Assembly: GCA_020342235.1 (NCBI GenBank)
Contig: CP073212.1
Coordinates: forward strand, 496,001 to 560,000
Reading direction: 5' to 3'
Length of the DNA: 64,000 bases
From: Saccharomycopsis phalli
Taxonomy: Eukaryota > Ascomycota > Saccharomycetes > Ascoideales > Saccharomycopsidaceae
Under the pieces are notes generated by a model. It saw only the letters and a program-made list of their open reading frames with translations. It was not told the origin of the DNA and made no database searches. The translations under genes were made by a program, and so were the position numbers. Each line of letters starts with the position of its first letter. Position 1 is the stretch's first letter. Positions 25,703 through 52,011 of the stretch are shown piece by piece.

Positions 25703-26340
25703 ATACTGCAACAGACTCGAGTGATTACAACTAAAACATCTTGCCTTGTCTACAGGGCTCGTGTGCAGATATCGCCTGCATCCTTGGAACTACATACACC
25801 AGTTGCTCATCTAATATCAGCGAGTGTAGCAAATATATTTCTGTAATAAAGCAGAAAATCACCCTGATATTTTTTTCACCGCGGCAACCAACCAGATTCC
25901 GTTTTACCCATGATTTGATTCTCGTCTACTAAACCAATGAATCGTATTCTACTCGTCCCCGTTGGAATAGCAAATATTCTCTTATAGCACTCCTTCAAGA
26001 CTCATATGCCAGTAATCTGAGCATGGAGTGGCTCAAACTAATTGCGTACTAGTTCAACAATCGTTGCCTCTTCCATGAGCCACTGTAACATCACAAACAG
26101 TCAAAAGGTTTTATCCATAGTCCACCGTCCCAAGCAACTTGTTTTGGTCAATCCTTAGCAATTACGCAAATATTTCATCTGCCTGCATATACCATAAGCA
26201 TTGAAGATCAATGACATTTACAATTCGCGGCAATATCCATCACGGCACTATTGTAAAATGGGTAGGGCATGAAAGCATCTGTGAAAATCTTCACAAACCA
26301 AGGTAAATACAATAAATACTAACACGCTTCACTAAAATTC
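25703..26340. other. Intergenic region, promoter of first aspartyl protease gene
   Basis: From about 25900 to 26340 this DNA resembles the region just upstream of the second protease gene (about 28800-29172), with shared words such as actattgtaaaatgggtagggca and ttctcttatagcact. The duplication therefore included the promoter. No additional gene is recognised. Confidence 0.55.
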
Positions 26341-27522
26341 ATGAAGCTCTTATTATACTTCATTACCCTTGGTCATGGCTTCTCGGCATCATTAAGTCTA
26401 TCAAGCAGTTCATTTGCAAAACGAGATCCACAGGACACAAAAAAAGGTTATGTAATTGACTATTTTGACAACAGGTACAGCATTCCCGAAACAACTATTC
26501 ACATTGGTGGCCAAGCCGTGAGTGTTGCGTATGATACTGGATCAAGTTTGATGTGGTTTCCTGATCCAGTGTCCTTGAACAACGTCGATGAAGATGTTAT
26601 TAAAGAAATTTACATTGACAGGAGTCGTCTGAAGGACTATCTTGTCACAAAATTCATGTATGATCTAAGACAGTCCAAGAGTGCAAAAATGATCCCTGAT
26701 GACGACTTTCATCAGGAGTTTTTGGATGGTACCGTCGCAGAAGGACCGTATTTTCATGATGATATAGTTTTAGGATCAGCTGAGTTGCCATCTGCTCCAT
26801 TTGGTGTGGCATACGAGCTCAATGGTATGTATGGTAACATCGGCTTGGGCCCAAGAAAACCTAAAGATACGCAGCCAGGATTAGTGGAGATGCTCAAACA
26901 AGCAAAATACATCAAACGACAATCGTATGGAATCCATATGAACCAGTACCTTAGTGAGAATAGTGGGCAGATTGTGTTTGGAGGTGTAGACACGAACCGA
27001 TTCCAAGGGCCGTTAAAAATGATTCCTGCTAGAAGAAACCCATTGGGTTACTTGGAATCACCAATTAGTTCTATAGGTTTTAGGCAAAGTGGCCAAAAAG
27101 ACAAGCCCTCAGTTAATGCTGTCATTGACATTGGGACCGCCTTAATTATTTTACCCGACGAATACAAAGAACATTTTAAAATGATGATAGACGAGAATGA
27201 TGATGTTTATAGTGCCTGTCACGGGAAGGACATTGGCGATTTGGAGTTTCTCTTTGGTAAATATTCCATCGTTGTTCTGCCTGATCAATTGCGAAGAGAT
27301 AAATATAAGAATCCTCATGATCAATGCCGGTTTGCCCTTGAGTTTGGATCAGATTCAATAATAACTCTAGGTATTCCATTCATGAAGGCCGCATACGTCT
27401 ATTATGATAATGAAACTCCTCAGATTGGGCTAGCACAAGCAGTTAAAATGAGAACCCCTGTGGCACCAAACATTGTCATTCCAGATGGGAAATTGATTGT
27501 TGGTACTGGAAAATCGGGCTGA
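26341..27522 (+). CDS. Secreted aspartyl protease (SAP/yapsin-like), copy 1
   Basis: Pepsin-family (A1) protease of 393 residues with a signal peptide (MKLLLYFITLGHGFSA) and a short propeptide ending in a dibasic Kex2-type site (AKR, residues about 26-28). The first catalytic motif is VAYDTGSSLMWF. The second is IDIGTALIILP, so the catalytic aspartate is present but the usual DTG/DSG is DIG. The flap region and a Cys pair (SACHGK and DQCRF) are visible. No GPI tail is present, so it should be secreted. It is one of a tandem pair with the gene at 29173; the last 383 bases of coding sequence are identical in both. Whether the DIG form is active is not clear from sequence. The family is certain, but the sub-family (SAP or yapsin) is not. 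Confidence 0.85.
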   Translation: MKLLLYFITLGHGFSASLSLSSSSFAKRDPQDTKKGYVIDYFDNRYSIPETTIHIGGQAVSVAYDTGSSLMWFPDPVSLNNVDEDVIKEIYIDRSRLKDYLVTKFMYDLRQSKSAKMIPDDDFHQEFLDGTVAEGPYFHDDIVLGSAELPSAPFGVAYELNGMYGNIGLGPRKPKDTQPGLVEMLKQAKYIKRQSYGIHMNQYLSENSGQIVFGGVDTNRFQGPLKMIPARRNPLGYLESPISSIGFRQSGQKDKPSVNAVIDIGTALIILPDEYKEHFKMMIDENDDVYSACHGKDIGDLEFLFGKYSIVVLPDQLRRDKYKNPHDQCRFALEFGSDSIITLGIPFMKAAYVYYDNETPQIGLAQAVKMRTPVAPNIVIPDGKLIVGTGKSG

Positions 27523-28094
27523 GGCAATAGTGAAAAGCAATCAATGAATTTCCAATCTTTTTCTGGCAAAGAGATTTGGAAACATGAAGTTTAAAATTAT
27601 CAATTTTTAATAATGTAGATGCCGAATTCCTCGTCGATTGAGTGTGACATCGTTACAAACTTATGCTCAGATATTTAGTTAATTATAGATGAGTTTTGTT
27701 CCTTTCATAATTGAATAATCGGAACGGTAGTGATGATTGAATTGATATTCTTCTATATTCTTAATTACAAAAATATCACCCCTTTATAGGATAGATATTC
27801 CCTTATAAGAACCTATCATCATGAGTTTCACACTACGTCACAACTGCACATTGTGCCTATTGTGCCGTCCCATGAGTACATTCCAACGCAGAATAGGTTC
27901 TCCGTTATAGGTTTCTTACTTGTGGTTTTCAACCTCAACAGATAGATATTCCCTTATAAGAACCTATCATCACGAGTTTCACATTACGTCACAACTGCAC
28001 ATTGTGCCTATCGTATCGTCCCGTGAGTACATTCCAATGTAGAATAGCTTCTCCGTTATAGGTTTCTTACTTGTGGTTTTCAACCTCAGCAAGT
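27523..28094. other. Intergenic LINE debris with a 151-bp tandem duplication
   Basis: After the identical 3' flank (to 27582) comes AT-rich spacer, then two tandem copies of a unit of about 151 bases at 27791-27940 and 27942-28092 (each starts gatagatattcccttataag). The end of each unit (tccgttataggtttcttacttgtgg) also occurs near 37541-37580 in the LINE ORF remnant. On the minus strand both encode a sequence like LLRL-TTSK-PITE, so these are LINE ORF fragments. Confidence 0.6.
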
Positions 28095-28650: not shown

Positions 28651-29172
28651 ATGTGAAACTAGGCTTTGACCGCAAAGGAGTTGGCTGATTTTGTAGAGTG
28701 CTTGTTTGGGTCCAACAAGAGTCTAGGTAAATATCTCATAGTAATCGTACGGGTTCGAATCTTGAATTAAAAATAATTAAGGTAGGTACGGAATTTATTA
28801 CACGAGTTTTGATTTTTGTCTATTAAACCGTTTCAATGTGTCTTCTTCTACTCATCATTTCTAGAATAGTAAAATTCTCTTCTATATAGCACTCCAGCAA
28901 GGCTACAATGCTAGCAATCAGTGCCGTATTTTGTCATAGACGGCATACAATAAATGTCACTTATATGTCTAGTATAGATTTACCATGAAGTAAACAATTA
29001 ATTTAGTGAGCCGTATTTAGAATAGCACTAATCATCAATGTCATTTGCAATTCGCGCTAGTATCCACGTCACGGAACTATTGTACAATGGGTAGGGCACA
29101 GAAGTATACGTGAAACTTCTCACAAACCAAGATAAATAGCATCAATGCTGCTGTATTTCGCTAAAAAAAACC
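28651..29172. other. Promoter of second aspartyl protease gene
   Basis: From about 28800 the sequence is a diverged copy of the region upstream of the first protease gene. At 28660-28755 a B-box-like gggttcgaatc (28743-28753) follows a possible A-box (ttggctgattttgtag), which may be a decayed tRNA-derived sequence. No complete cloverleaf can be drawn. Confidence 0.45.
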
Positions 29173-30378
29173 ATGAAGTTTTTATTATATTTCATTACCC
29201 TTGGTCATGTCTTCTCGGCGTCATTGAGTCTGTCAGATAGTTTATTTGCAAAACGAGCTCCAGAAGGCAGAAGTGCAGCAGGGCAAGTAATTGGTAAAAA
29301 AGAAGGTTTTATAATTGACTATTTTGACAACAGGCGAAGCTTTCCCGAAACAACTATTGAGATTGGTGGCCAAGTCGTAAGTGTTGCTTATGATACTGGA
29401 TCAAGTTTGATGTGGTTCCCCGATCCACTGACCTTTAAAAAAGTCGATTCAAATTCCGCTAAAAAATATATTGACAATAGTCGTCTGAAGAGCTATCCAG
29501 TCACAAAATTCATGTATGATCCAAGACAGTCTAAGAGTGCAAAAAAGATCCCTGATGACGACTTTCATCAAGGTTTTTTAGACGATACCGTCGCAGAAGG
29601 ACCGTATTTTCGTGATGATATAGTTTTCGGATCAGCTGAGTTGCCATCTGCTCCATTTGGTGTGGCATATGAGCTCAATGATATATATGGTAACATCGGC
29701 TTGGGCTCACCTAGTACTGAAGATACGCAGCCAGGATTAGTGGAGATGCTCAAACAAGCAAATTATATCAATCAACAATCGTATGGAATCCATATGAACC
29801 AGCACATTGGCGAGAATAGTGGGCAGATTGTGTTTGGAGGTGTAGACACGAACCGATTCCAAGGGCCGTTAAAAATGATTCCTGCTAGAAGGAACCCGTT
29901 GGGTTACTTGGAATCACCAATTAGTTCTATAGTTTTTAGTCAAAGTGGCAAAACAGAGAAGCCCTCAGCCAATGTCGTCTTTGACATTGGGACCACCTTA
30001 ATTATTTTACCCGACGAATACAAAGAACATTTTAAAATGATGATAGACGAGAATGATGATGTTTATAGTGCCTGTCACGGGAAGGACATTGGCGATTTGG
30101 AGTTTCTCTTTGGTAAATATTCCATCGTTGTTCTGCCTGATCAATTGCGAAGAGATAAATATAAGAATCCTCATGATCAATGCCGGTTTGCCCTTGAGTT
30201 TGGATCAGATTCAATAATAACTCTAGGTATTCCATTCATGAAGGCCGCATACGTCTATTATGATAATGAAACTCCTCAGATTGGGCTAGCACAAGCAGTT
30301 AAAATGAGAACCCCTGTGGCACCAAACATTGTCATTCCAGATGGGAAATTGATTGTTGGTACTGGAAAATCGGGCTGA
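29173..30378 (+). CDS. Secreted aspartyl protease (SAP/yapsin-like), copy 2
   Basis: Tandem paralogue of the protease gene at 26341, 401 residues. It has the same signal peptide (MKFLLYFITLGHVFSA), a dibasic site (AKR) followed by a slightly longer pro-segment (SAAGQVIGKKEG), a first catalytic motif VAYDTGSSLMWFPDP and a second motif FDIGTTLIILP (again DIG instead of DTG/DSG). The 5' two-thirds differ from copy 1 at many positions, including charge changes in the loops around the active-site cleft. From base 29996 to 30438 the two genes are identical, through the stop and into the 3' flank. This points to recent gene conversion over an older duplication, with different selection on the N-terminal lobe. 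Confidence 0.85.
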   Translation: MKFLLYFITLGHVFSASLSLSDSLFAKRAPEGRSAAGQVIGKKEGFIIDYFDNRRSFPETTIEIGGQVVSVAYDTGSSLMWFPDPLTFKKVDSNSAKKYIDNSRLKSYPVTKFMYDPRQSKSAKKIPDDDFHQGFLDDTVAEGPYFRDDIVFGSAELPSAPFGVAYELNDIYGNIGLGSPSTEDTQPGLVEMLKQANYINQQSYGIHMNQHIGENSGQIVFGGVDTNRFQGPLKMIPARRNPLGYLESPISSIVFSQSGKTEKPSANVVFDIGTTLIILPDEYKEHFKMMIDENDDVYSACHGKDIGDLEFLFGKYSIVVLPDQLRRDKYKNPHDQCRFALEFGSDSIITLGIPFMKAAYVYYDNETPQIGLAQAVKMRTPVAPNIVIPDGKLIVGTGKSG

Positions 30379-31539
30379 GGCAATAGTGAAAAGCAATCAA
30401 TGAATTTCCAATCTTTTTCTGGCAAAGAGATTTGGAAAAATGAAGTTTAAAATTATCAATTTTTGCTTTCAATCAGTCAAGTATATAGCAATAATGTACC
30501 GATAAAAAGCATACCATGTAGTATAAGAACTGGAATATACAACTATGTATTATATTGTTCCGTTGAATTTGGATCCCCAAGGGCCTTTTAACAAGCCTGG
30601 TTAAACGGTTCTATGGTTAATGTGAGCCGTAGTGATGGTTTCCTATCACTCTTTGCCTTGGGTCATTTCCTTGGCATGTGGGACATGTGGAATTGAATAT
30701 TATACTGACCCACTGTATTTGCCATGTTATACCTCAATTCGGTATGATATATTGGAATCACTCACGTCCCGTGGTTCCTCTGGACATTTTGCCGTAGTGC
30801 CTTATTTGTTTATCAGTGCGGTACATCTTAGACAATGTTAGTTTGAGATGGTTCCTGAAGTTTGCTTTGAATCATGGGTGATTGCCAAATACCCATTGTA
30901 ATTCGACCACGGATGAGTCTCCATTTGCGGGGTGACTTTTGAAGGTGGTGGTTGTGGACAAGGATTAGTAAGGCAGCATTGAATTGAATATAGTTTTCTA
31001 ATTACAGTAGTAAAACATGTAATTATCTAAGTCAATTTCCTCGTAATTTACTAGACCATTGCGCTTGAATAATAGCCATGTCTTGACGTTTCAAATCTGG
31101 AGGTATGTGCTTTGTCAAGAGTATAGAGTATAACAAATGCACAAGAGTAGTATAAACATGTGCTCATCAACAGTATAAATATATGCCCCCCAAAAGTATA
31201 AACAAATGCCCACCAACAGTATAAACATATGCTATCAATAGTATAAACATGTTCACCAACCATCTTTTTAGGTTAAACGGATGAAATGGATAACCTATAC
31301 AACATCTACATTGAATAAATACTCTGTTCAAGTACCAATTGCCAATTTTGCATCTCCAAATATTCAATTAGTTGTACATTGTTGTACATTGTGTATATGA
31401 AGCCAATTGTAATTTGTCTAGTTAAACACGACCCACCCGTATTATGAGCCCGTGGACCACCAGTCGCGGCGCACATGGCTACCCGCCATTGCTACTCGCA
31501 CTCATTATCATTGCCTCTCGCATCACAAAAAATCTTGCC
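30379..31539. other. Intergenic region between protease copy 2 and PBA2
   Basis: Holds the protease terminator and, at 31145-31255, an imperfect repeat of about 20 bases (caacagtataaacatatgcc). The frame of the following gene is open from an upstream ATG at 31444, so the last hundred bases could be coding if that start were used. Otherwise nothing is recognised. Confidence 0.45.
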
Positions 31540-33652: not shown

Positions 33653-34414
33653 TATACACTACACCCTGTACCCATTGTACTTGCTCAAATTATCAATTTC
33701 CCGCTATTTCGTGTTTCATTGGTCTCAGCTGATGCACAATGTAGTTGCCTGACACCATGTCTACGAATTGGCTTAATTACGTCATATGATGTGATTCGCC
33801 ATGTCTAGTTGTCTTTTGTATTGAACGGTGTTTGAATATGATTATGGAATGTGTGAGTATCGTGTTTAGGTTATAGTTTGCTGAGTTTCGTAGTGAAAAG
33901 TAGGTTATAATGCTCTATGACCATTTCATTATTCAATTTGACATGACCATTTACCAATTCCGACATTTTATCAATTCCGTCTTTCCATCCTTCTACCTTA
34001 ATCAGTTCTCATTTCTGCATCTAGAAATTCCAAACATAATAACAACGTCTATTTACTTCTATAGCTATAATAGACTCTATAATTAATTAACTACCCTAAG
34101 AAGCGTCTCCCAGGACAACCTGCCAGGTTGCTCTTTTGGTCAGTGCCATACAGCCGCAACCACACAACACTCGGTATAGTTTATGCAATTTACACCTGTT
34201 AGAATATACAAATCTACTGGCCACATTATATTTCATCGACTTCTTTGAGATTGGGTAACCAGATGAGGCGATTGTGCACCTATTCGACATTTCATTAATT
34301 CAGATTGAAGCCTGGTCCCCTTTCTATATAGTTATAAAGGCACAGTCTTTTCTTTTGTAAAACTATACCGCGTATTAAATAATACTACCAAAAATAAAAT
34401 CTTTAATCAAGCCA
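33653..34414. other. Intergenic region at the edge of the duplicated island
   Basis: GPM1 terminator, then AT-rich spacer. At 34035-34080 the words aataacaacgtctatttacttctatag resemble the flank upstream of both secreted-protein copies (36703 and 39957), so a further decayed unit of the duplicated segment may end here. No gene is recognised. Confidence 0.4.
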
Positions 34415-34924
34415 TTAAATACATTGGCCGTTTCGATTAGGGAAACAAATATCCATCGTAGCGTGTTGTTTAGTACTCTGCCTACATTTAATTCCATCAA
34501 AATCTACACGGTCAAATGGAACCGAATTGTGAGCAACTAGTAAACTCGAAATAATTCCCGATTTTTTTAAAGTGTGCATGGTTACAACCTGATTAATCAA
34601 GCAGAGTTGTCTACCATTTTTTTGCTCACTATAGGTACCCTTGAGAACTGCGTTTGGAAACTGCTTCAATAAATCAGCGGTTTCAGTGTAGCTATACAAT
34701 TTTCCAATTTTAAAGACTTGGTGGAACTGTCTACGGTCACGAAGAGTATCTGATTGCACAAAGAAGTTGTAAACTGCCTGCACATAATCCGTCACAATGC
34801 TCCGCCGAATCGAATTTCTAGTTCCTAGCTTAACCAAATGGTCGAATTGACTTATCAAATGTTGAGAGATTCCGTTTGTGCCACTTTTATTTATGAGAGA
34901 TTTCAATTTTTCATAGACCTCATT

Positions 34925-34937
34925 TTTGTCCCAAGTA
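34925..34937. repeat. Target-site duplication of the SINE-like element, left copy
   Basis: tttgtcccaagta, identical to 35410-35422. The intact paralogue has a single copy of this sequence at the matching place (about 39043-39057). Confidence 0.9.
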
Positions 34938-35409
34938 AGTAAGTAAGTAAGTATATTTAGTTCTGTATTTAGCTATATATTGTCTCCGGAAACACGGTGA
35001 TTCGACAGATATATTTTCACTCAGGAACATCCTGAGGCAGCATTCTATTGAAGAAAACCCTTTATAACCCTAAACGGTTATATGGGCTGAAAAACTTCAA
35101 TGGGAGCAGTGTTGTTAGTGGTTTAACGTGACTGGCTATTGGTTATGCGAGAAGCCTGGCCATCCTTCGGCTAAATGCCGGCGCTATCCGGCCGCTGAAT
35201 CTCGTGACGATGGGCGCACGACTCGTCGGGGTCGTTCATTGCTCGTTTGCGAGACTTCCTTGTATTGCCCTTCTGAGGCGTAGTGTGCTCTTTCTGGAGA
35301 CTTTCTTGAGTATTGGGGCGGTTTGGTGGGGCTCGAACCCGGTAACTACCTCATGATGCGCCCTCCATAAGGCATGAGGTGTTTTCCATTCGGCCAAACC
35401 TCCTGCCCC
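34938..35409 (-). mobile_element. tRNA-derived SINE-like retroposon with a LINE-type 3' end
   Basis: Read on the minus strand from 35409. It starts GGGGCAGGAGG and has an A-box-like TGGCCGAATGG and a perfect B-box GGGTTCGAGCC about 50 bases later. The arms GGTTTGG and CCAAACC pair, and GGGGC pairs with GCCCC outside them, so the head is tRNA-like though not a regular cloverleaf. A body of about 130 bases without known relatives follows. The last 230 bases or so match the LINE 3' end at 38135-38370 (gattcagcgg, ctcccaattgaag-like, gggttttcttcaa, atgctgcctcaggatgttcc, tgaaaatatatctgtcgaat). The element ends in a (ctta)n tail and is bounded by a perfect 13-bp direct repeat of host DNA. It has no coding capacity of its own. 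Internal pol III boxes, a LINE-like tail, a simple-repeat end and the duplication together define a SINE. Confidence 0.85.
35315..35400 (-). other. tRNA-like head with A-box and B-box (pol III promoter)
   Basis: A-box-like TGGCCGAATGG at 35387-35397 (plus strand ccattcggcca) and B-box GGTTCGAGCC at 35329-35338 (plus strand ggctcgaacc). Spacing is that of a tRNA with an intron or long variable arm. CCTCATG and CATGAGG form an extra hairpin between them. The parent tRNA cannot be named by eye. Confidence 0.65.
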
Positions 35410-35422
35410 TTTGTCCCAAGTA
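35410..35422. repeat. Target-site duplication of the SINE-like element, right copy
   Basis: tttgtcccaagta, identical to 34925-34937. Host coding sequence continues directly after it. Confidence 0.9.
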
Positions 35423-35925
35423 TAATCCGGGACTTCGTAGCACTCAGGACTTAGGGATGAAAACTCTTTGATGTAATTTCTAGTTGAATCTTCTGCCATT
35501 TTGAGGTCATTATTACCCCAATACTCTGAGATCCAGGTATTGCTTGTGAAGTAGTTTGTTGGGAGCAATGAATGGATTTCCTCGTTTGATTTAAAACCCT
35601 CATTAGTCAATGGTGAAAGTCGATTATTTTTCTTGTACAGGTTTCTTCTCAAGGAATCAATATAAATTTCTTCATATTTATGAGTATAATTGTATACAAG
35701 CATCACGTTCCGAACTGCTTCCTTCGTACATTCTGGGGGACTGTACAATCCATCTCTGTTTGCAAGCGGAGTATTCGGACCTGTGACGCTCAATTCTTTG
35801 AGTGTAGACTCGAATATTTTATCGGTATCTGATTGTACTCCATTATAAGAACCAACCGAGGCCGCTAGGCTAATCTTCAAAAGAAGTAGAGCTAAAAGGG
35901 CATCAAAGATTACAAACATGTTCAT

Positions 35926-36808
35926 GAATGAATTGTTGAAATTGTGTGTTTATATAAGGATAGCCATGGTCAATAGAGTTAATTATATAGTCTTACAAAT
36001 AAGTATAATTCTGTATGATTAGTTCACTAAGAGTTTTTTCAAAAGGCATTTCTACATGCTAATTTTATCAGCTGTCAAACGGATATTTCGTGTGGCTATT
36101 ATGCATGGCTATTCTGTATGGCCATGTCAAATTGGTTATATCCTGTCGTGGTTAAAAACCACTGCCAAACAGTTTGCTCAAGCAATGTCAACCTCAGTTA
36201 AATATCATGAACCTACGGCATTGATTAGACTGAGGTGTTTCTCCAATGTTGTTGGAGAATGTCATGATGTCTGAGGCCGTGGGATATGACACAAATGGCA
36301 GCTCGCCGTAAAGCATCCCCAGTGGATTATGGCAAAACCACTTTGGTCTTGTGAATGTGATAACTATAAATAGGGATTATTTTACCATATAGAAAGAACA
36401 ACTTAACTGAACAATCTAGCTAGACGTTGTATCTAGCAGAGCCCAGTCCGGTTATCCAGCTTCTAAAGGAACAAAACAAATAATTAAAGTAGTTTATAGT
36501 TCATTATAATACTATATATAATCAAGACCGAAATATAAACTATGATACGCATTTTATACTAATGGTAAATAATTTGCTTGTCAAACATACCTGATTCATT
36601 ATTGACTTTCTCAAGGTGAATACCCGACCTAAAACATGCACACATGTTCATAAGCCCTAACAGTGCCGCAAGACTTGCATTTTCGTGAAAGTTAATTATA
36701 GCCATAATAATAATGTCTATTCGCCTCTATAGTAATTCTAGACTCTCCTAATATTTCATCACAAAAACCAAGGTCAATGTCGCTAAATGGGAGTCGATAG
36801 AAATCCTG
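35926..36808. other. Promoter of copy 1, carrying an LTR-like or other insertion
   Basis: Bases 35926-36138 and 36547-36808 are near copies of the region upstream of copy 2 (39559-39777 and about 39800-40052). Between them copy 1 has about 400 extra bases (36139-36546) absent from copy 2, whose distal half recurs inverted at 37773-37980. The extra segment contains a TATA-like aactataaatagggat. It looks like an inserted mobile element; a solo LTR is one reading, but I could not fix its ends. Confidence 0.55.
36338..36546 (+). repeat. Dispersed repeat A, inverted relative to 37773-37980
   Basis: About 208 bases, clearly homologous to the reverse complement of 37773-37980. Shared blocks include gataactataaataggga, tatctagcagagcc, ccggttatcca and aacaaataattaa. 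Divergence is moderate with small indels. The pair brackets the LINE remnants, so the region could fold or recombine as an inverted repeat. Confidence 0.8.
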
Positions 36809-37577: not shown

Positions 37578-37676
37578 TTCAACCTCAGCAAAATATATTT
37601 GTCAAATAACCGTAATGCCGAAGGTAGCATATAGCTAAGTACAAAAATAAATAAATAAATAATAATAATAATAATA

Positions 37677-37770
<94 letters not shown>
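37578..37770 (+). mobile_element. LINE 3' terminus with (AAT)n tail
   Basis: Plus-strand copy of only the last 70 or so bases of the LINE 3' UTR (tatttgtcaaataaccgtaatgccg, then atagctaagtacaaaaata), running into a long (aataat)n tail at 37640-37770 that turns into (att)n at its far end. The abutting minus-strand ORF fragment at 37577 shows that two LINE pieces are fused head to tail here. Confidence 0.7.
37640..37770. repeat. (AAT)n microsatellite forming a LINE tail
   Basis: More than 30 copies of aat on the plus strand, then seven of att. The palindromic turn at about 37749 could form a hairpin. Confidence 0.9.
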
Positions 37771-37772
37771 TG

Positions 37773-37980: not shown

Positions 37981-38395
37981 GCTCAAATTCTATCGCGCAT
38001 TGATGAAATACTAAATTCCACTCATGGCATACGCAATACGCTTGGAAAAGTGTTTGCCGACCAAAAATCAGTCCACAAACTCCTTGAGTTCTACCAGAAC
38101 GTGTTGGAATATGATTCCTCCAACACATTATGTGATTCAGCGGTCACATTCGACAACAAGAGTGACTAGGCTTCTTACACAATCAATACAAGCACTAAGC
38201 ACCAACAATATGACTGCTCCCAATTGAAGTTATTAATCCCAAGCAGCCAAATGAGGGTTGACAGGGTTTTCTTCAACAGCAATGCTGCCTCAGGATGTTC
38301 CTCAGTGAAAATATATCTGTCGAATAACCGTATTGCCGGAGAAAAGATATAGATAAATACAAAAATTATTATTATTATTATTATTATTATAAAAC
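37981..38395 (+). mobile_element. 5'-truncated LINE copy with 3' UTR and (ATT)n tail
   Basis: The clearest LINE 3' end in the window. The frame from about 37986 reads FKFYRALMKY or, shifted, ILSRIDEILNSTHGIRNT, matching the 37-kb copy, and continues through KVFADQKSVHKLLEF to CDSAVTFDNKSD and a TAG at 38167-38169. A 3' UTR of about 200 bases follows (gctgctcccaattgaag-like, gggttttcttcaacagcaatgctgcc, atatctgtcgaataaccg), ending in aaaaattattattatt. It is 5'-truncated, as usual for LINE insertions. This copy also shows the uninserted state of the tRNA-Trp-half site. Confidence 0.78.
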
Positions 38396-38532
38396 ATGTA
38401 TTTCTTTGCAACATTGACGAGAGTTGCATAATTCTCAAAGGGCGGCTTCATCTATAAGCACGATCTTTTCCTTTATAAAATTATACCACGTATTAAATAA
38501 TAGTACCAAAAATAAAGTCTCTAATCAAGCCA
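38396..38532. other. 3' flank of secreted-protein copy 2
   Basis: Short terminator region. From about 38460 it matches the flank beyond copy 1 (34340 onwards: aaaattataccacgtattaaataatagtaccaaaaataaa). No other feature. Confidence 0.5.
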
Positions 38533-39558
38533 TTAAATACATTGGCCGTTTCGATCAGGGAAACAAATATCCATCGTAGCTTGTTGTTTAGTACTCTGCG
38601 CACAGTCAATTCCATCGAAATCCACACGGTCAAATGAAAACGAATTGCGAGCAACATTTGGGTCCATAATAGTTCCAGGACGACGCAGCGCGCGCATGGT
38701 TATAACCTTATTAATCGAACAGAGTTTTCTACCATTTTCTTGCTTACTATAGGTGCCCTTGAGAACTGCATTTGGCAACTGCTTCAATAATTCAGCGGCT
38801 TCAGCATAGCTATACAATCTTCCAGATTTAAAGACTTCGTGCAACCGTTTACGGTCACGAAGCGTATCTGATTGCACAAAGAAGTTGTAAACTGCCTGAA
38901 CATAATCCATCACAATACTCTGCTGAATCGAATTTTGAGTTCCTAGACTAACCAAATGGTCGAATTGACTTATCAAATGTGGAGAGATTCCGTTTGTGCC
39001 ACTTTTATTTATGAGAGATTTCAATTTTTTATAGACCTTATTTTTGTCCCAAGTATAATTTGGGACTTCGTAGCACTCAGAACTTAGGGATGAAAAATCT
39101 CTGCTGCATTTCCTAGTTATATCTTCTACCATTGTGGGCCCGTTCTTCGTCCAATACTTTGAGATCCAGGCATTGCTCGAGAAATAGCTTGTCGGAAGCA
39201 ATGATTGGGTTTGCTCGTTTGATTCAAAAGTCTCAGAAGCCAATGTTGAACGCGTGTATGGTTCCTTGTACGTGTTTGCTCTCAAGGAATTAATATAAAA
39301 TTTCTCATTTTTATGATTATAATTGTATACAAGCATCACGTTCCAAGCCTCCTCATTTTTACATTTTGATGGACCATACAAGACATCTCTGTTTGCAGGC
39401 GGAGTATTTGGACCTGTGACGCTCAATTCTTTGAGAGTAGACTCGAATATTTTATCGGTATCTGATTGTGCTGCATTGGAAGAACGAAGGGAGGCCGCTA
39501 GACTAATCTTCAAAAGAAGTAGAGCTAAAAGGGCGTCAAAGATCACTGTCATGTTCAT
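38533..39558 (-). CDS. Secreted protein of unknown family, copy 2 (intact)
   Basis: Intact 341-residue protein with a clear signal peptide (MNMTVIFDALLALLLLKISLAAS). The mature part is mixed alpha/beta in character, with Cys at KCKNEE, KCSRD, ECYEV, KLCSINK, DCAQ, DICF and QCI, consistent with disulphides, and NYTWDK as a potential N-glycosylation site. There is no GPI tail or transmembrane helix beyond the signal, so secretion is likely. I do not recognise the family or see catalytic motifs. Its paralogue at 34415-35925 is interrupted by a SINE-like insertion; here the matching site, at gtcccaagtataat near 39046-39059, is uninterrupted. Both genes carry the same type of upstream sequence, so they arose by segmental duplication. 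Confidence 0.8.
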   Translation of the reverse strand: MNMTVIFDALLALLLLKISLAASLRSSNAAQSDTDKIFESTLKELSVTGPNTPPANRDVLYGPSKCKNEEAWNVMLVYNYNHKNEKFYINSLRANTYKEPYTRSTLASETFESNEQTQSLLPTSYFSSNAWISKYWTKNGPTMVEDITRKCSRDFSSLSSECYEVPNYTWDKNKVYKKLKSLINKSGTNGISPHLISQFDHLVSLGTQNSIQQSIVMDYVQAVYNFFVQSDTLRDRKRLHEVFKSGRLYSYAEAAELLKQLPNAVLKGTYSKQENGRKLCSINKVITMRALRRPGTIMDPNVARNSFSFDRVDFDGIDCAQSTKQQATMDICFPDRNGQCI

Positions 39559-40090
39559 GAATGAATTGTTGAAATTGAGTGTTTATATAAGGATAGCCAT
39601 GGTCAATAGAGTTGATTATATAGTCTCACGAATAAGCATGATTCTATATGATAGTTCACTGAGAATTTTTTTTCAAAAGGCATTTCTACATGCTAATTTT
39701 TTTAGTTATCAAATGGATATTTCGTGTGGCTATTATGTATAGCTTTTCTGCATGGCCATGTCAGATTGGTTATATCCAGATGTTTCATATATTTAGTATT
39801 TTATACTAATGGTAAATAATTTGTTTATAAAACATACCTGATTCATGATTGACTTTCTCAAGGTGAATACCCGACCTAAAATATGCACATGTCCATAATT
39901 CTCAACGGTGCCGCAGGATTTGCGTTTTCATTAAAGCTAATTATAGCCATAATAATAATGTCTATTCGCCTCTATAGTGATTCTAGGCTCTCATAATATT
40001 TCATCGCAAAAACAAAGGTCAATGTCGCTAAATGGGAGTCGGTAGAAATCCTAGAGATAGAAACTTTCTCTTTGATTTTAACGTTGTATG
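39559..40090. other. Promoter of copy 2, duplicated flank
   Basis: Near copy of the sequence upstream of copy 1 (35926-36138 and 36547-36808), without the 400-bp insertion. Ends at about 40052, where the two loci diverge at gtagaaatcct. Confidence 0.6.
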
Positions 40091-51651: not shown

Positions 51652-52011
51652 GGTAAGAATCTAGTAATCTAATAATCTAATAATCCAATCCAATAATCCA
51701 AGAATCTAAAAATCCAAATATCGATATCAAATATCAAATATCAATATCAATATCAATATCAATATCAATATCAATATCAATATCAATATCAATATCAATA
51801 TCAATATCAATATCAATATCAATATCAATATCAATATCAATATCAATATCAATATCAATATCAATATCAATATCAATATCAATATCAATATCAATATCAA
51901 TATCAATATCAATATCAATATCAAATATCAAATATCCAAATAAAAACCATCACATTCCCTAGACCCGTGCCATTTGCCCTGGATGCCACACACCTTGCCA
52001 GGGCACGCAAC
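51652..52011. other. Intergenic region dominated by a hexanucleotide array
   Basis: Between the GH16-like gene's start and the SGS1 stop. It starts with short aataatc-type repeats, followed by the (atatca)n array annotated separately, leaving little unique sequence. Confidence 0.6.
51736..51930. repeat. (ATATCA)n hexanucleotide array, about 31 copies
   Basis: Almost perfect 6-bp repeat. On the minus strand two frames stay open through it (alternating Ile-Leu or Ile-Asp), but these are artefacts. Its regularity implies recent expansion. Confidence 0.95.

Follow-up and report, generated by a model that had tools for sequence, protein, structure and literature searches.

A probable, recently mobile SINE family with a LINE-related 3' end in the budding yeast Saccharomycopsis phalli

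SINEs are known mostly from animals, plants and filamentous fungi, and have hardly been described in CUG-Ser budding yeasts such as Metschnikowia bicuspidata. A short insertion in the 64,000-nucleotide stretch of S. phalli DNA analysed here (the window) raises the question of whether the genome of such a yeast harbours a SINE and, if so, what moves it. The answer favoured here, with a probability of about 0.92, is that it does: the insertion is a SINE for which transcription by Pol III is probable, as is mobilization by a resident LINE up to the very recent past. The features on which the argument draws are as follows (element positions count from the head).

34925–34937, no strand: target-site duplication (TSD) on the 3' (tail) side of the SINE, TTTGTCCCAAGTA, the same as 35410–35422.
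34938–34953, minus strand: (CTTA)n simple-repeat tail; the units differ among copies (CTTA, ACTTA, TCTTA).
34953–35203, minus strand: part derived from a LINE 3' UTR (element 207–457), by global alignment to the intact LINE L109 from the ORF2 stop codon to the 3' end; 190 of 234 BLAST columns agree.
34961–35103, minus strand: putative three-helix 3' recognition module (element 307–449); separate folding predicts a similar layout in the young SINE and in each of the LINE families A, B and C.
35020–35036, minus strand: hairpin CTCAGGA-TGT-TCCTGAG inside the module; the surrounding 28-nt pattern was counted in the genome.
35204–35314, minus strand: body (element 96–206), outside the LINE homology; matches to element 90–250 all fall on SINE copies.
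35315–35409, minus strand: head with putative internal Pol III promoter boxes (element 1–95), comprising A box, B box and the 24-nt head pattern.
35410–35422, no strand: TSD on the 5' (head) side of the SINE, the same 13 bp as 34925–34937.
38158–38383, plus strand: LINE 3'-end relic of partner type with a TTA-type tail, 77.8% identical to SINE 243–470.
39043–39055, no strand: empty target site in paralogous sequence, single there; 163 of 178 bases agree with the joined flanks.

The insertion is sharply delimited. A complete SINE copy occupies window positions 34938–35409, with its sense on the minus strand, between two identical copies of TTTGTCCCAAGTA. The length of 472 bp, the (CTTA)n end and the perfect 13-bp TSD had all been proposed from the letters of the window and hold exactly. 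The uninterrupted target is also present. In a paralogous stretch of the window the 13-bp site occurs once, and the flanks of the insertion, once joined, match this stretch at 163 of 178 bases. The original prediction was right that such an empty site exists; its position is 39043–39055, not 39046–39059. The joined site falls within a frame of 328 codons that is open to both ends of the roughly 1 kb of flank examined. The SINE interrupts a duplicated gene-like pair (34333–36143 and 38453–39777, 85–89% identity). A second duplicated gene-like pair of the window, with the same range of identity, lies at 26207–27608 and 29034–30464.

This copy belongs to a dispersed family. The genome searched was the window's own (14,148,124 bases, or 14.15 Mb, in 8 contigs), and the whole element gives at least 42 matches there, a lower bound because 40 of 319 candidates were scored. 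Loci with flanks were fetched for 40 of these first 42 matches, including the copy in the window; the remaining two matches are short fragments inside the flanks of L020 and L033. The 5' end is intact in 34 of the 40 loci, on all 8 contigs and in unlike flanks, and in these 34 the sequence extends from the head almost as far as the tail. A genome scan for a 24-nt head pattern, allowed up to three mismatches, finds it 36 times (reversed control, 0). L034 and L040 each contribute one extra partial head to this count, which leaves 34 heads. The family is thus made of short (472 bp), non-coding, dispersed copies with one common 5' end. As had been predicted, these carry variable CTTA-type tails and distinct TSDs.

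Divergence within the family is near zero for most copies. A 456-bp core is identical in 30 of the 34 full-length copies; it differs by one or two bases in L038, L039 and L040, and by indels in L042. Among the six remaining loci, L041 has lost its head, and L043–L047 are diverged, with 72–95% identity. Identical cores beside diverged copies indicate an old background on which a very recent burst has been superimposed. The central part of the element (90–250), used alone as query, gives at least 40 matches (40 of 42 candidates scored), and every one of these 40 falls on a SINE copy, older copies being among those hit. One of them, at C1:1011134 (L132, a diverged copy), was absent from the first match list. 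The identical cores stand in unlike flanks, and an assembly artefact is rejected on this ground. Segmental duplication was considered and rejected. With at least 30 copies identical over the core, a budding yeast genome can evidently host a SINE, and the family has probably been active recently or is active today.

The copies bear the marks of their insertion. TSDs of 10–17 bp, most often 12 bp, flank 31 of the 34 full-length copies. When the upstream flank of each copy is set against the downstream flanks of the others, 6 of the 1122 mismatched pairs share a word of 10 bp or longer. The 17-bp TSD of L039 is inflated, because this copy sits in a repeat. Three copies have no good TSD: that of L013 is imperfect by eye, that of L016 is 7 bp long and L019 has none. 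Deletion, recombination or unusual insertion could explain these three. The tail opens with ACTTA in 33 of 34 copies, the exception being L040, which has no CTTA tail. It continues in CTTA, ACTTA or TCTTA units, at times mixed within one copy and varying in repeat number, a pattern expected from a slipping reverse transcriptase. Inside the TSD of three of the 34 copies lies a second partial head (16 nt in L030, 25 nt in L034 and 21 nt in L040), taken here to reflect template jumping as the first strand was being completed. All three jumps lie within 25 nt of the 5' end. Target-site preference is weak: among 31 sites, T stands at −2 in 19 and C at −1 in 14, and the first TSD base is A or T in 30. 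No target motif is drawn, because the tail blurs the boundary. Stop-free frames of at least 150 codons span 8 of 33 joined empty sites (a raw count, L013 excluded).

How the element would be transcribed is suggested by its head. An A box, TGGCCGAATGG, lies at 35386–35396 on the minus strand (element 14–24), and a B box, GTTCGAGCC, at 35330–35338 on the same strand (element 72–80). Each is the sole consensus match on either strand of the element. The predicted boxes are present as exact consensus matches at tRNA-like spacing. Among 20,000 dinucleotide shuffles of the element, 2 combine an A box within the first 30 nt and a B box as far from it as in a tRNA, and 24 have an A/B pair anywhere. Pol III would probably transcribe the element from this internal promoter, with a start most likely at or near the GGGG that opens the copies. 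TTTTT at element 316 and TTTT at 353, inside the LINE-derived part, could stop Pol III early, so that read-through would be needed.

The claim that the head is tRNA-derived is the weak point of the original prediction. Compared with 50 tRNA loci, a partial genome set, with 100 mononucleotide shuffles each, the head scores best against tRNA-Leu(UAA), with a z of 4.2. From element position 7, 16 of 18 bases match the 5' end of this tRNA, in register with the A box. Programs that detect tRNAs do not recognize the head as one. ARAGORN reports no tRNA at the head in the window, nor in the six of seven older copies included in the run (all but L046). Rfam gives no hit for the young head at E up to 1. 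Across seven sources that include older heads it finds no tRNA, and one sub-threshold snoRNA hit (L044, E 1.3). The strongest competing account concerns the head alone: it may descend from some other kind of Pol III gene and not from a tRNA gene, or its A and B boxes may have been gained secondarily. This is unlikely. It would agree with the silence of both programs on tRNAs, with the predicted folding of the head as a long closed stem, GGGGC...GCCCC, and with a Leu(UAA) score barely above that of the next isotype in the same partial set, Ala(UGC), at z 3.8. Against it stand the 16 matched bases in A-box register and a B box in its place.

The 3' half leads to the LINEs of the same genome. The best reference is an intact LINE, L109. 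Its ORF1 frame of 494 aa has no match in Pfam; in its ORF2 frame, which is 1124 aa long, Pfam identifies endonuclease (Exo_endo_phos_2) and reverse transcriptase (RT; RVT_1) domains. A search of the genome for the RT gives 91 matches, and loci were obtained for 30 of these. Among the 30, seven are 99.8–100% identical to L109 over about 3.65 kb, L067 is 96.6% identical over a similar length, and L069 is L109 itself. LINEs of the L109 type, named family A, thus have young copies. One search for a TSD around L109 found none. In ORF2, L076, L077 and L078 are 48–49% identical to L109, and a C-terminal stretch of L110 is 37.8% identical over 291 columns; L076 and L078 share 62% identity. Family B is represented by L078 and L110, and family C by L076 and L077. 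Besides A, two further LINE families with a similar predicted 3' layout are seen among L076, L077, L078, L110 and L111.

In a global alignment, the homology of the SINE to the L109 3' UTR starts one base after the ORF2 stop codon. Identity rises towards the 3' end: it is 11–21 of 25 bases per window over element 200–349, and 23–25 of 25 over element 350–449, or 96 of 100 bases. The source of element 207–457 is the 3' UTR of a LINE resident in this genome. Homology to the 3' UTR of a neighbouring LINE had been proposed, and it is real: the relic at 38158–38383 is 77.8% identical to the SINE over 234 columns. The intact LINE elsewhere in the genome is closer still, at 190 of 234 columns. A self-complementary repeat array at window 37643–37771 adjoins LINE relics.

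The conserved end may fold into a module shared by SINE and LINEs. The 28-nt pattern around the hairpin, with up to three mismatches, occurs at 182 genome places, SINE and LINE copies included (reversed control, 0). Nine 3' ends were folded separately: those of the young SINE, L109, L078, L110, L076, L077 and the older SINE copies L044–L046. Their z-scores against mononucleotide shuffles are modest, from −2.26 to −0.05. The predicted order is the same in the young SINE and in the three LINE families: first a 5' helix that contains an inner stem, next the hairpin, and last an AT-rich helix, again containing an inner stem. The stem letters are not the same; an example is CTCAGGA/TCCTGAG in A as against CCGTC/GACGG in B and C. 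Folding predicts that an outer closing helix forms in the young SINE and in families B and C; for A it predicts a small extra hairpin and no such helix. In the older copies L044–L046 the hairpin persists, whereas the complete predicted layout does not. MAFFT misplaced the 5' helix in the alignment of LINE and SINE modules, so the separate folds are the basis of the structural agreement. Two of the older copies, at 80–84% identity, end differently, L045 passing into TTA-like sequence and L046 into AT-rich sequence; the SINE lineage may thus have acquired its CTTA tail later.

These observations are consistent with the following model. (i) The A and B boxes would drive Pol III transcription of the SINE. 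(ii) The folded end of the captured LINE 3' UTR, which makes up the last 250 or so bases, would let the RT of a resident LINE bind the SINE RNA. (iii) The LINE protein would nick the target and copy the RNA in trans by target-primed reverse transcription. (iv) The expected outcome is a TSD of 10–17 bp, a CTTA-type tail made by slippage, and copies that are mostly full length.

Which LINE provides the protein is a separate matter. The SINE may be moved by another LINE family, or by a LINE that is lost or outside the fetched set, instead of by the A-type copies found. This is improbable, slightly more so than a head of other than tRNA origin. The tails give it substance: young SINE copies end in CTTA-type repeats, whereas ATT repeats end L109, L078 and L111 and AAT repeats end L076. 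On account of this difference, the LINE copies found may not be the exact partner. Families B and C also share the predicted layout, so that the SINE might be moved by any of the three, and the loci at hand represent 30 of the 91 RT matches. The near-identity of the SINE to LINE A over element 350–449 and the existence of young A copies argue the other way, and family A remains the likelier partner. Roughly even odds are given to a wider reading, in which no natural SINE/LINE pair that is mobile at present was known in budding yeasts before this one, and in which the SINE carries a three-helix module common to LINE A and families B and C.

A much weaker proposal is that the copies are internally deleted LINEs, in which a 5' and a 3' end have been joined. 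It would explain why the 3' half is LINE 3' UTR. It fails on the remainder of the element and is rejected as very improbable: the BLAST match to L109, taken with ORF1, ORF2 and about 0.4 kb upstream, is limited to the 3' part of the SINE, the head contains Pol III boxes, and the same body recurs in older, diverged copies. A family of short DNA transposons (MITEs) would also be short, non-coding, numerous and flanked by TSDs, but it is dismissed as having a negligible chance, since the TSDs range between 10 and 17 bp in length, the tails differ in their repeat unit and in the number of repeats, no inverted repeat is apparent when the two ends (GGGGCAGG and a CTTA repeat) are read, and the 3' end is a LINE 3' UTR.

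Known systems offer close parallels. In the text available, MgSINE of Magnaporthe grisea is described as tRNA-derived, 472 bp long and present in about 100 copies (PMC5063351), and is paired with the LINE MgL/MGR583 (PMC3747384). Compared by these partial descriptions, it resembles the present SINE in being fungal, in its length and, probably, in having a partner LINE; its host is a filamentous fungus, whereas that of the present SINE is a budding yeast. The equal length is taken as coincidence. SINE2-1_BG of Blumeria graminis, also tRNA-derived, goes with a LINE as the present SINE probably does, its named partner being Tad1-24_BG, a Tad1 element, according to the accessible part of the same source (PMC3747384). 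There, too, UnaL2 of eel and other stringent-type LINEs are described as requiring their own 3' end, which the SINE carries, and the short 3' repeats of such LINEs and SINEs are ascribed to template slippage (PMC3747384). For the present pair, 3' recognition of the UnaL2 type is suggested by sequence and predicted folds alone.

Among Saccharomycotina, LINEs are represented by Zorro in Candida albicans and Ylli in Yarrowia lipolytica, as far as the available texts go (PMC7175516, PMC5014426). Zorro3 belongs to the L1 superfamily and is described in the available text as having poly(A) on both flanks (PMC7175516), whereas the present LINE ends in ATT repeats. For Yarrowia, the accessible text reports LINEs and, on SINE-like mobilization of Pol III transcripts, mere speculation (PMC5014426). 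The original prediction that the family may be new to Saccharomycotina is in keeping with the full-text literature consulted in part (including PMC6416283), in which no characterized SINE from this group appears; most subscription papers and Repbase fall outside this scope, so that priority is not proven. In the portions available, no word beginning with SINE occurs for four yeast models (PMC7175516), SINE as a whole word is absent from a budding yeast genome paper (PMC5499181), and the same holds for a report that names LINEs in Metschnikowia bicuspidata (PMC9234493). An automated table, seen in the available part of its source, lists 6 'SINE' in this species (PMC10148492). In a yeast genome of 14 Mb, a young SINE and the LINE that probably moves it would offer a small system for testing SINE transcription, LINE dependence and host control.

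The host had been taken for a CUG-Ser yeast. That it reads CUG as serine is supported, not proven, by comparison with solved relatives. The alignments cover 18 CTG codons from three genes of the window. Of these codons, 5 face serine, all in SMC6; the others face leucine (1), isoleucine (1), phenylalanine (1), other polar or charged residues (9) and a gap (1). The three genes have additional CTG codons beyond the aligned parts. A tRNA at G000:C7:1518930-1519060 (L128) has CACAGAG in the region of its anticodon loop and a serine-like body. It is read here as having a probable CAG anticodon and an intron of 10 nt; ARAGORN calls it Thr(UGU) instead. Elsewhere in the window, a tandem array at 51717–51936 shows self-matches at a spacing of 12 bp that are 94–97% alike.
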